A stretch of 64,000 nucleotides of DNA from Shinella zoogloeoides. Its GTDB lineage: Bacteria > Pseudomonadota > Alphaproteobacteria > Rhizobiales > Rhizobiaceae. A model generated the notes under the pieces. That model was not told where the DNA came from and ran no database searches. It saw only the letters and a list, made by a program, of their open reading frames with translations. The stretch's first letter is position 1, and each line of letters opens with the position of its first letter. Of this stretch, positions 26,093 through 40,652 are shown piece by piece. The stretch lies in contig NZ_CP132311.1 in the NCBI RefSeq assembly GCF_030733845.1, positions 1,615,501 through 1,679,500 on the forward strand, in the 5' to 3' direction. The position numbers and the translations under genes were made by a program.

Positions 26093-26278
26093 GCCTAGTT
26101 ATCCTTTTCCGGTTGAACCTCCGCAAGGCAAACAGCATCCCGTCAGGAATGCCACCGGGCGGAACGGTCCGGATTTCTCCCGGACAATCCCATGCCTCAC
26201 GTGTGGAATGGCTGCCCCTTAACCGCAGTTTCCCGGCAAATCAAGGGCAGCGGGATAAAAAACACGATCGAGCCGCGC

Positions 26279-39172: not shown

Positions 39173-39293
39173 GTCATCCCTCTGCCGGGACCTTCTCCCC
39201 GCGAGCGGCAGGGCAATCGCATATGAAGTGAACTATTGCGGCTTGTCCCCTTCTCCCCGGCGGGGAGAAGGTGCCGGCAGGCGGATGAGGGGG
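39173..39293. repeat. RIME-like palindromic repeat, copy 2
   Basis: Same architecture as copy 1: a degenerate left edge (CGTCATCCCTCTGCCGGGACC), CTTCTCCCCGCGAG, then CCTTCTCCCCGGCGGGGAGAAGG and the right edge GCCGGCAGGCGGATGAGGGGG. It lies 44 bases to the left of the IS110-family element. Confidence 0.75.
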
Positions 39294-39375
39294 ATGCCGA
39301 AGGCAAAAGGACAACGTTTCCCGCCGCATCACCCCCTTGCATGTTCATTTTGCATTGATTGCTTGATGATCGATG

Positions 39376-39409
39376 CGCACTCCGGCGGATGGCCATCCGC
39401 CGGAGTGCG
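39376..39409. repeat. 34-bp perfect palindrome in the IS left end
   Basis: Two 17-base arms with no loop, centred between 39392 and 39393 (arm core ACTCCGGCGGATGG). In RNA it would form a very stable hairpin at the 5' side of the proposed bridge RNA; it may also help protein binding or limit transcription from outside. Confidence 0.9.
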
Positions 39410-39525
39410 GACGGTCGGGACCGCGACCCCCTTGGCTTGAACCGGGGATGAGCTTGGTCCGGCCGTCCTTCGCGTTTGTCCTGAACAGATGATGGGGAGC
39501 AAGTCCCGCATGCAAGGCAAGGTAT
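39376..39525 (+). ncRNA. Candidate bridge RNA of the IS110-family element
   Basis: Left-end noncoding RNA with the layout known for IS621-type bridge RNAs: a 5' hairpin (39376-39409), then two internal loops. Target loop: outer stem GGACC (39418-39422) / GGTCC (39456-39460), left guide ACCCCCT (39426-39432) identical to the left target, right guide GGATGAG (39446-39452) complementary to CTCATCC of the right target. Donor loop: outer TTG-CCT / AGGCAA, inner GGG / CCC, left guide ACAGATGAT (39485-39493) matching 8 of 9 bases of the right end ACAGATGCT, right guide CATGCAAG (39509-39516) exactly complementary to CTTGCATG at the left junction. RNA ends are estimated. Confidence 0.8.
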
Positions 39526-40478
39526 CGTCAAAACCAAACGCGGCACCAGTTTATGTCGGTGTCGATGTCTGTAAAGAGTGGCTCGACATTCATTTGCATC
39601 CGCTGGGCCGCGACCTCAGGCTCGCCAATGGCAAGGCCGGGCTGCAAGCGCTGAAGCGGCTACTGCGCGGGCTGCAGCCGGCCTCTATCGTGATGGAGGC
39701 GACGGGCAAGTTTCACCGACTGGCCCATCGCAGTCTGCATGAGAGCGGCTTTCCGGTCGCTATCGTCGATCCGTATCGCGCCCGCATGTTCGCCAGAGCC
39801 TGCGGCCACTTGGCCAAGACCGATCGGCTGGATGCCCGCTTTCTCGCCATTCTCTCGCAAATGCAGCAGCCAGCGCCCACCGCGCCTCCCGACAAGCTTC
39901 TGGAAACACTTGGCGAACTGATCAATGCGCGCTGCGCGGCCGCAGCCGATCTGGCGGCGCACAAGAACCGCCTGAAAGCGACGGATAGTGCTTTCCTGCG
40001 CCAGCAGCTCGGCAAGCTGGTCATAGCCTTGCAGCGGCATATCGAAAGCTTGGACAAGGAGATCGCCCAGCGCATCGCCGAGGATCCCGAGCTTTGCCGC
40101 AGGGTGGAAATCCTGACCTCCGTTCCCGGCGTCGGCGCCGTCACGGCTCATTGCCTGGTCATCGGCCTGAGCGAGTTGGGGCACTGCAATGCCAAGCAGG
40201 CGGCCATGCTGGCCGGCTTGGCGCCGATCGCCAACGACAGTGGCGCGCGCCAGGGGCAGCGCTCGATCAGTGGCGGCCGCAAGACGCCGCGCAACGCCCT
40301 CTACATGGCGGCGCTGTCGGCCTGCCGCTACAATCCGGATATGAAAACCTTCGCCACACGGCTGAAGGACAACGGAAAGCAGGCCAAGGTCGTTCTCACC
40401 GCCGTCATGCGAAAACTCGTCGTCCTCGCCAACACGCTTCTTACCCAAAATCGATGCTGGACGCCAAATCCACCTTGA
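39510..40478 (+). CDS. IS110-family transposase (DEDD recombinase)
   Basis: RNA-guided recombinase of the IS110 family, 322 aa from the ATG at 39510; an alternative ATG at 39489 would add seven codons but lies in the left donor guide. N-terminal RuvC-like domain with acidic residues Asp19 (YVGVDVCKEW), Glu63 (VMEATGK), Asp105 and Asp108 (KTDRLDARF). A coiled helical linker follows, then the Transposase_20 domain (ILTSVPGVGAVTAHCLV) with the catalytic Ser in RSISGGRKTPRNALYMA (Ser254). Intact with no frameshift, so the element may be active. Confidence 0.93.
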   Translation: MQGKVSSKPNAAPVYVGVDVCKEWLDIHLHPLGRDLRLANGKAGLQALKRLLRGLQPASIVMEATGKFHRLAHRSLHESGFPVAIVDPYRARMFARACGHLAKTDRLDARFLAILSQMQQPAPTAPPDKLLETLGELINARCAAAADLAAHKNRLKATDSAFLRQQLGKLVIALQRHIESLDKEIAQRIAEDPELCRRVEILTSVPGVGAVTAHCLVIGLSELGHCNAKQAAMLAGLAPIANDSGARQGQRSISGGRKTPRNALYMAALSACRYNPDMKTFATRLKDNGKQAKVVLTAVMRKLVVLANTLLTQNRCWTPNPP

Positions 40479-40495
40479 CCTTCAACACAGATGCT

Positions 40496-40652
40496 CATCC
40501 GACCCTTCGGGCCACCTTCTCCCCGCCGGGGAGAAGGGAAAACCGCAAAGCCCTGTCATAGGCGATAGCCCTGCCGCGAGCGGGGAACAGTTACCTTCTT
40601 CTTCCTTCTCCCCGTTTGCGGGGAGAAGGTGGCCGGCAGGCCGGATGAGGGG
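40496..40652. repeat. RIME-like repeat, copy 3, interrupted at its left edge by the IS
   Basis: Begins CATCCGACCCTTCGGGCC right after the IS and ends GGCCGGATGAGGGG. Its missing left bases (CCCCCT) are found on the other side of the IS at 39332-39337. Internal hairpins CTTCTCCCCGCCGGGGAGAAG and CTTCTCCCCGTTTGCGGGGAG match the other copies. It lies 12 bases past the metC stop. Confidence 0.82.

Follow-up and report, generated by a model that had tools for sequence, protein, structure and literature searches.

An IS621-like insertion sequence of Shinella zoogloeoides with a predicted bridge RNA whose donor-binding loop contains the probable recombinase start codon

A stretch of 64,000 nucleotides from Shinella zoogloeoides (the window, in whose positions all coordinates below are given) carries an IS110-group insertion sequence in which a noncoding left end precedes the recombinase gene. 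Does this left end encode an RNA that specifies both the target and the ends of the element, and where does the recombinase reading frame begin relative to that RNA? Bridge RNAs of IS110 elements are already established (PMC11208160, PMC11208158, PMC11187229), so an RNA of this kind in the window adds to a known class. The features are collected in Table 1.

The dinucleotide CT at 39336-39337 and at 40494-40495 forms a core common to both ends of the element. Because CT stands on both sides, the ends can be written as 39338-40495 or, equally validly, as 39336-40493. The noncoding part comprises 172 nt on the left up to the ATG at 39510 (151 nt to the ATG at 39489) and 17 nt on the right (40479-40495). 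Five copies of 1158 bp each (L001 to L005) were found in the genome (5.18 Mb, 4 contigs), and none differs from the window copy by more than one base: L002 is identical, three others are one base off, and L003 is two bases apart from L004 and L005. All five are inserted at CCCCCT^CATCCG. The base before CCCCCT is A, G, C, A, and A in L001 to L005, respectively, and the A that the left target guide has at target position 3 is mismatched in two of its five own copies, L002 and L003, which have G or C there. The left flanks of these two copies diverge from the others immediately 5' of CCCCCT; on the right, CATCCG comes first in all five flanks, and L003 diverges from the rest right after it. The first-pass annotation of the window had proposed an IS110-family element with the ends 39338 and 40495. 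Both the element and its ends are borne out by the shared unit: the flanks diverge outside the target edges, and no differing ends were found among the five copies. That the genome holds five copies could not be seen in that pass, which was confined to the window.

When the two flank edges are joined, they read CCCCCTCATCCG, and 41 exact uninterrupted sites of this sequence exist elsewhere in the genome, compared with 0 sites for a reversed-pattern control. Many of the 41 sites are arranged as facing pairs. A scarless target combined with a shared dinucleotide core is a feature of the IS110 group and is present here. The element is surrounded, at 39250-39337 and 40496-40650, by inverted REP-like repeats of the form CCTTCTCCCC...GGGGAGAAGG with CCCCCTCATCCG edges. 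The region C2:0.70-0.94 Mb holds 21 of the 41 uninterrupted target sites and four of the five insertions.

Table 1. Features of the element and of its predicted bridge RNA (window coordinates).
Feature	Position	Strand	Basis or remark
IS110-group element	39338..40495	+	1158 bp with one CT core; same ends in five copies
Second target copy (CCCCCTCATCCG on the - strand), uninterrupted, facing the occupied one	39282..39293	-	genome site search
Left target, 9-nt frame, CT core last (39336-39337)	39329..39337	+	string match
Right target CTCATCC	40494..40500	+	string match
Left donor sequence, ACAGATG and CT core (right end)	40487..40495	+	string match
Right donor sequence, CT core and TGCATG, pairs with right donor guide	39336..39343	+	string match
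14-pair 5' stem-loop of the predicted bridge RNA	39377..39408	+	alignment; changes on both sides at every pair among relatives
Target-binding loop with stem 39409-39423 / 39455-39468	39409..39468	+	alignment
Left target guide, CGACCCCCT in the 9-nt frame, of which the final 7 nt match the left target	39424..39432	+	string match, covariation
Right target guide GGATGAG	39446..39452	+	string match, covariation
Handshake base C, partner of G at donor position 7	39453..39453	+	covariation
Donor-binding loop, basal stem CCU/AGG 39480-39482 / 39520-39522	39480..39522	+	alignment
Left donor guide ACAGATG	39485..39491	+	string match
GGGGAG, 5' arm of donor-loop apical stem and putative Shine-Dalgarno-like site, 10 nt before ATG 39510	39494..39499	+	alignment; function inferred
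Right donor guide CATGCAAG, contains likely start codon ATG 39510-39512	39509..39516	+	string match, gene tables of relatives
Handshake base G, partner of C at target position 7	39517..39517	+	covariation
Recombinase CDS, 322 aa from ATG 39510 (329 aa from ATG 39489)	39510..40478	+	open frame; PF01548 and PF02371
TTGACC, -35-like box, putative promoter part	40475..40480	+	sequence; overlaps recombinase stop codon TGA
CATGTT, weak -10-like box, putative promoter part	39340..39345	+	sequence; spacing of 17 bp to TTGACC in the circular form

Four guides can be read directly from the left end, all at the places given in the first-pass annotation: ACCCCCT at 39426-39432 is identical to 39331-39337 in the left target, GGATGAG is the reverse complement of CTCATCC at the right junction, and CATGCAAG is the reverse complement of CTTGCATG at 39336-39343. 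The fourth string, ACAGATGAT (39485-39493), matches ACAGATGCT (40487-40495) at 8 of 9 positions. A small correction is to take only the 7-nt ACAGATG as the left donor guide and the bases behind it as a linker, because the latter vary among relatives (AT, CT, GT, AA, or TC) and a linker (A131-U132) is found at the same place in IS621 (PMC11208158). The left donor guide of IS621 (A123-C130) pairs with the core C (PMC11208158), whereas that of the window does not. When the 176-nt leader (39352-39527) was shuffled 20,000 times with its dinucleotide composition kept, ACCCCCT occurred in 176 shuffles, GGATGAG in 1090, ACAGATG in 224, and CATGCAAG in 44, corresponding to 0.2 to 5.5% per string, and all four occurred in order in none. 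Chance matches were ruled out as the source of the guides by these shuffles and by the guide-target covariation described below.

The structure around the guides was derived from an alignment of 14 left ends (13 distinct sequences). In the structure used for covariance model R1, 93.6% of the 518 cells are paired and 23 of the 40 pairs are changed on both sides. The RNAalifold pairs 60-61/81-82 had been swapped for GG/CC 64-65/77-78 in this structure, because they join both target guides. Sliding the partner by 1-3 columns brought the paired cells to 48% or less, a comparison that favours the R1 structure, which was derived from the same sequences as those tested; shuffled alignments, which ignore relatedness, were as good on any of five measures in 0 of 500 cases. 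Very little variation is seen in the donor loop, where a single basal-stem pair (1 of 13 rows) and a single apical-stem pair (3 of 13) show double changes. Folded alone, the window sequence has a minimum-energy structure with a z-score of -4.29 that departs from the consensus in places. At the DNA level, the 5' stem-loop region (39376-39409) is a perfect 34-base palindrome, the arms of which change together among relatives.

R1 was searched against 99 sources, that is, the window and 98 loci chosen for encoding relatives of the recombinase (L155-L197 and some others were left out). At E ≤ 0.05 it matched 95 of the 99, including its own building sequences, and gave no match in L019, L021, L027, and L114; the E-values are rough, the calibration having been short. 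Its single match in the window, 39375-39527, lies upstream of the recombinase. With filters off, R1 also matched the left end of IS621 with a low score (L198 407-580, model positions 1-154, 14.6 bits, E = 0.0023), and this match sits directly before the annotated CDS start of IS621 at 583. An Rfam search found no family at threshold at the element, where weak sX15 and mir-2830 hits scored far below the cut-off. The first-pass annotation had described an IS621-type bridge RNA with two loops, flanking stems, and four guides in the IS621 order, and had suggested a covariance search; the conserved structure, the 95 matched sources, and the match to the left end of IS621 uphold that description. 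Two further observations were made in these searches. An extra hairpin resembling the 5' stem-loop is located just past the right end of the element in L075 (3060-3092), at the contig end, where a second adjoining IS110 element is possible. Elsewhere in the window, 26096-26205 (-) matches the Rfam rpsB sRNA family RF01815 with 42.9 bits against a cut-off of 40.

If the RNA chooses the target, guides and targets should change together among relatives, and the first-pass annotation had named this as a point on which its reading could fail. For each of 102 R1 matches, the ends of the element were placed from the donor guides alone, and the target test is therefore independent of end placement. 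Of these matches, 92 were kept after ten had been set aside, six for covering the model only in part and four for lack of a recombinase hit immediately downstream. For 76 elements, with 71 distinct RNAs, the right end could be placed uniquely at ≥6/7. Across the five non-core positions, the right target guides of these 71 agreed with their own right targets at 299 of 355 positions, compared with 120.7 ± 8.9 after permutation (0 of 20,000 as high), and the match was perfect in 34 of the 71. On the left side, where a left end at ≥7/8 was required (n = 42) and the best of two registers was taken for own and permuted pairs alike, 205 of 294 positions agreed, compared with 115.0 ± 7.7 (0 of 20,000). 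Duplicate RNAs were removed for these permutations, which do not model relatedness. The signal persisted with one element per distinct guide (right, 182/215 vs 63.4, n = 43; left, 187/273 vs 106.2, n = 39). Among near relatives (at least 45% protein identity), it was again seen on the right (58/70 vs 33.5, n = 14, 0 of 20,000) and was weaker on the left (60/84 vs 47.2, n = 12, 3 of 20,000 permutations as high). Agreement is low at the outermost left positions (position 1, own 0.38 vs others 0.23). As individual examples, the right target of L041 is the reverse complement of its guide CTCTCCC, and L078 has the left target guide TGCATCCCT and the left target CGCATCCCT. Automatic placement of the right end is wrong for some elements, and no manual correction was applied: L075 was kept in the right-side test with a wrong target, which counts against the claim, and L078 and L083 were dropped by the fixed threshold. 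At the left end of L087 / L044, the first bases of the element apparently stand in tandem (TTGCATATTGGATAGGCC twice), giving two candidate left borders. The guides thus track the targets in both the right and the left sets, and the check on which the first-pass reading could have failed turned out in its favour.

The bases that adjoin the right guides of IS621 form pairs with positions 6-7 of the other DNA (PMC11208158). Across the elements, the handshake base just past the right target guide finds its partner in 65 of 71 (31.8 expected by permutation), and that just past the right donor guide in 32 of 41 (14.1 expected), with 0 of 20,000 permutations as high in either case. At position 6 (T and C) the window has no such pairing, its second handshake bases being T and C. 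This check is separate from the guide evidence and had been left unused in the first pass. We consider it very probable that the locus is a recently mobile, IS621-like insertion sequence of the IS110 group with an IS621-type bridge RNA.

The recombinase frame is open over 39489-40478, and PF01548 and PF02371 are both above the cut-off. D26, E70, D112, D115, and S251 (329-aa numbering) are invariant in 9 aligned proteins and, in the alignment with IS621, stand opposite its DEDD residues and its serine. The DEDD residues and the serine are the catalytic residues of the IS110 family (PMC11208160, PMC11208158). The only matches among solved structures at E ≤ 0.01 were IS621 (8WT6, 2.2e-36) and ISCro4 (9T56, 2.7e-34). 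The transposase is intact, as had been claimed, and its conserved catalytic residues together with the near-identical copies suggest a working recombinase. A search for viral relatives found none in a single-protein scan and 43 loci, with identity of 46% or less, in an alignment scan; a plasmid DNA search gave six records, the best places having 73-80% identity. Hosts of the relatives are mostly alphaproteobacterial. Four relatives of 39-42% identity (L093, L117, L140, and L146) come from bins labelled Planctomycetota, Chloroflexi, or Myxococcales, and these outlying labels may reflect either transfer or misbinning.

From these data, the following course of events can be proposed. The left end would encode a bridge RNA of about 170-175 nt, consisting of the 5' stem-loop, the target-binding loop, and the donor-binding loop; a promoter formed at the circle junction would drive its transcription, and the recombinase would bind and carry it. 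The target loop would pair with both strands of the repeated palindromic element at ACCCCCT/CTCATCC and the donor loop with the joined ends of the circular form, ACAGATG-CT-TGCATG, followed by strand exchange at the shared CT. Translation of the recombinase would start inside the donor loop. We are highly confident in this explanation as a whole, a recently mobile IS621-like element guided by a bridge RNA, in which transcription, RNA-protein binding, and present-day activity are presumed from the sequence. A promoter rebuilt across the circle junction is suggestive only: TTGAC is present in 16 of the 32 elements with both ends placed, and the relative L042 has TTGACG-17-TATATT, but the -10 box of the window, CATGTT, is poor. 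This weak box would suit a silent element, in which the bridge RNA architecture is real and no longer in use; the near-identity of the five copies (at most one base from the window copy), the open frame, and the intact catalytic residues speak against silence, which we regard as unlikely.

Could the conserved leader instead be a structured 5' untranslated region that controls only the translation of the recombinase, the guide matches being by-products of insertion into repeats? A Shine-Dalgarno-like site and a start codon do lie in the donor-loop stem, and the leader of ISPpu9 hides the ribosome-binding site (PMC8450116). However, a purely regulatory leader would not track its own target as the right-side guides do, the handshake bases covary, and the leader resembles the left end of IS621, an element for which others have tested the RNA; a solely regulatory leader is thus very improbable. 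That the locus belongs to the IS1111 group, which falls in the same protein superfamily and also combines a DEDD recombinase with RNA-guided target choice (PMC11187229), is scarcely conceivable, since the seekRNA of that group lies in a long right end, in a noncoding region downstream of the recombinase (PMC11187229), whereas here the RNA is upstream, the right end has only 17 noncoding bases, and a left end longer than the right is the IS110-group layout (PMC11208160).

The bridge RNA of the window departs from that of IS621 in its relation to the reading frame. All possible recombinase starts (39489, 39492, and 39510) are within the donor loop, and no in-frame ATG, GTG, or TTG is present in the window between the end of this loop and the first catalytic motif. 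The start is probably the ATG at 39510 and not that at 39489, because the gene tables of three relatives (L199, L200, and ISMno29, L201) use the equivalent ATG, inside the right donor guide. The start position could be scored in 72 of the 92 elements: in 14 of these no start follows the loop, in 57 an ATG does, and in 1 there is only a GTG or TTG. Two of the 57, L076 and L077, group with the window and have an ATG 20 nt past the loop, the in-loop ATG also being kept. On a protein tree built without the N-terminus by a quick method with SH-aLRT support only, the 14 in-loop elements fall in two clades, one of 9 rows including L076 and L077 (support 97) and one of 7 rows (support 97). With L076 and L077 unscored, the tree requires the trait to change twice, which is compatible with two gains as well as with a single gain followed by a loss.

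The apical donor loop contains GGAG or AGGA in 9 of 9 members of the window clade, 6 of 7 of the second clade, and 5 of 56 others, a stricter pattern picked after the result of a looser one (GGAG, GAGG, AGGA, or GGGG; 13 of 14 in-loop elements vs 32 of 58 others) had been seen. A ribosome-site-like motif precedes the post-loop ATG in 47 of the 55 elements having such an ATG. Among 12 members of the window group, same-residue pairs share the same codon in 166 of 187 cases at codons 9-11, which lie in the loop, in 121 of 166 at codons 12-20, and in 3327 of 7064 at codons 21-322; of 51 three-codon segments with enough pairs, codons 9-11 included, 1 is as high as codons 9-11. RNA-level and protein constraint therefore appear to overlap at these codons.

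We tentatively propose, as a reading with a little less than an even chance, that in the window clade one RNA segment is both guide and message, with the Shine-Dalgarno sequence in the apical stem and the start codon in the right donor guide. Folding of the guide or binding of the recombinase would then block translation, a feedback that would tie the amount of recombinase to the guide supply, and the ends could not change without changing the first codons. That the donor loop may block translation is argued by analogy, the ISPpu9 leader providing the precedent (PMC8450116). No description of a start codon within a donor guide was found in the open-access papers searched. The term 'start codon' is absent from PMC11208160, the authors of which included 50 bp of CDS in the folded flanks. 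The layout may be new, and specialists may already know it. We call it a variant on account of where the starts lie elsewhere: in IS621 (whose CDS in L198 starts after the RNA match) and in most of the relatives that could be scored, the start codon follows the donor-binding loop, whereas the window recombinase has no such start.

Several known systems resemble the element. IS621 of E. coli, the founding bridge RNA element, shares with it the DEDD/Ser recombinase (2.2e-36), a left-end RNA in which loops and guides follow one another as they do here, the CT core, insertion into repeated palindromes, the handshake bases, and the R1 match; the target and donor guides of the two differ. ISMno29 of Methylobacterium nodulans is the nearest IS-named element among the 40 plasmid matches listed (51.5% protein identity). 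It has the same donor guides and an annotated CDS start at the ATG inside the right donor guide, but another target, which its guides largely match by eye (left target guide TCTCCCTCT vs left target GCTCCCTCT; right target guide GGGAAAG vs right target CTTTCCC). ISRm19 of Sinorhizobium meliloti is likewise an IS110-family element of a rhizobium, with 4 of 4 copies in REP repeats (PMC1525189); the likeness is drawn from its published description, and the accessible text of the 2006 paper does not mention a guide RNA. ISPpu9 of Pseudomonas putida shares the IS110-family recombinase, the location in REP repeats, and the leader hiding the ribosome-binding site, but is regulated by the small RNAs Asr9 and Ssr9 (PMC8450116).

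With this element the IS110 family gains a compact bridge recombinase that is well supported and whose target and donor are both readable, and the aligned guides and targets of its relatives (71 right and 42 left) can help in working out programming rules. Because donor guide and start codon overlap, the sharing of one transcript between guide RNA and recombinase in IS110 elements becomes directly testable.
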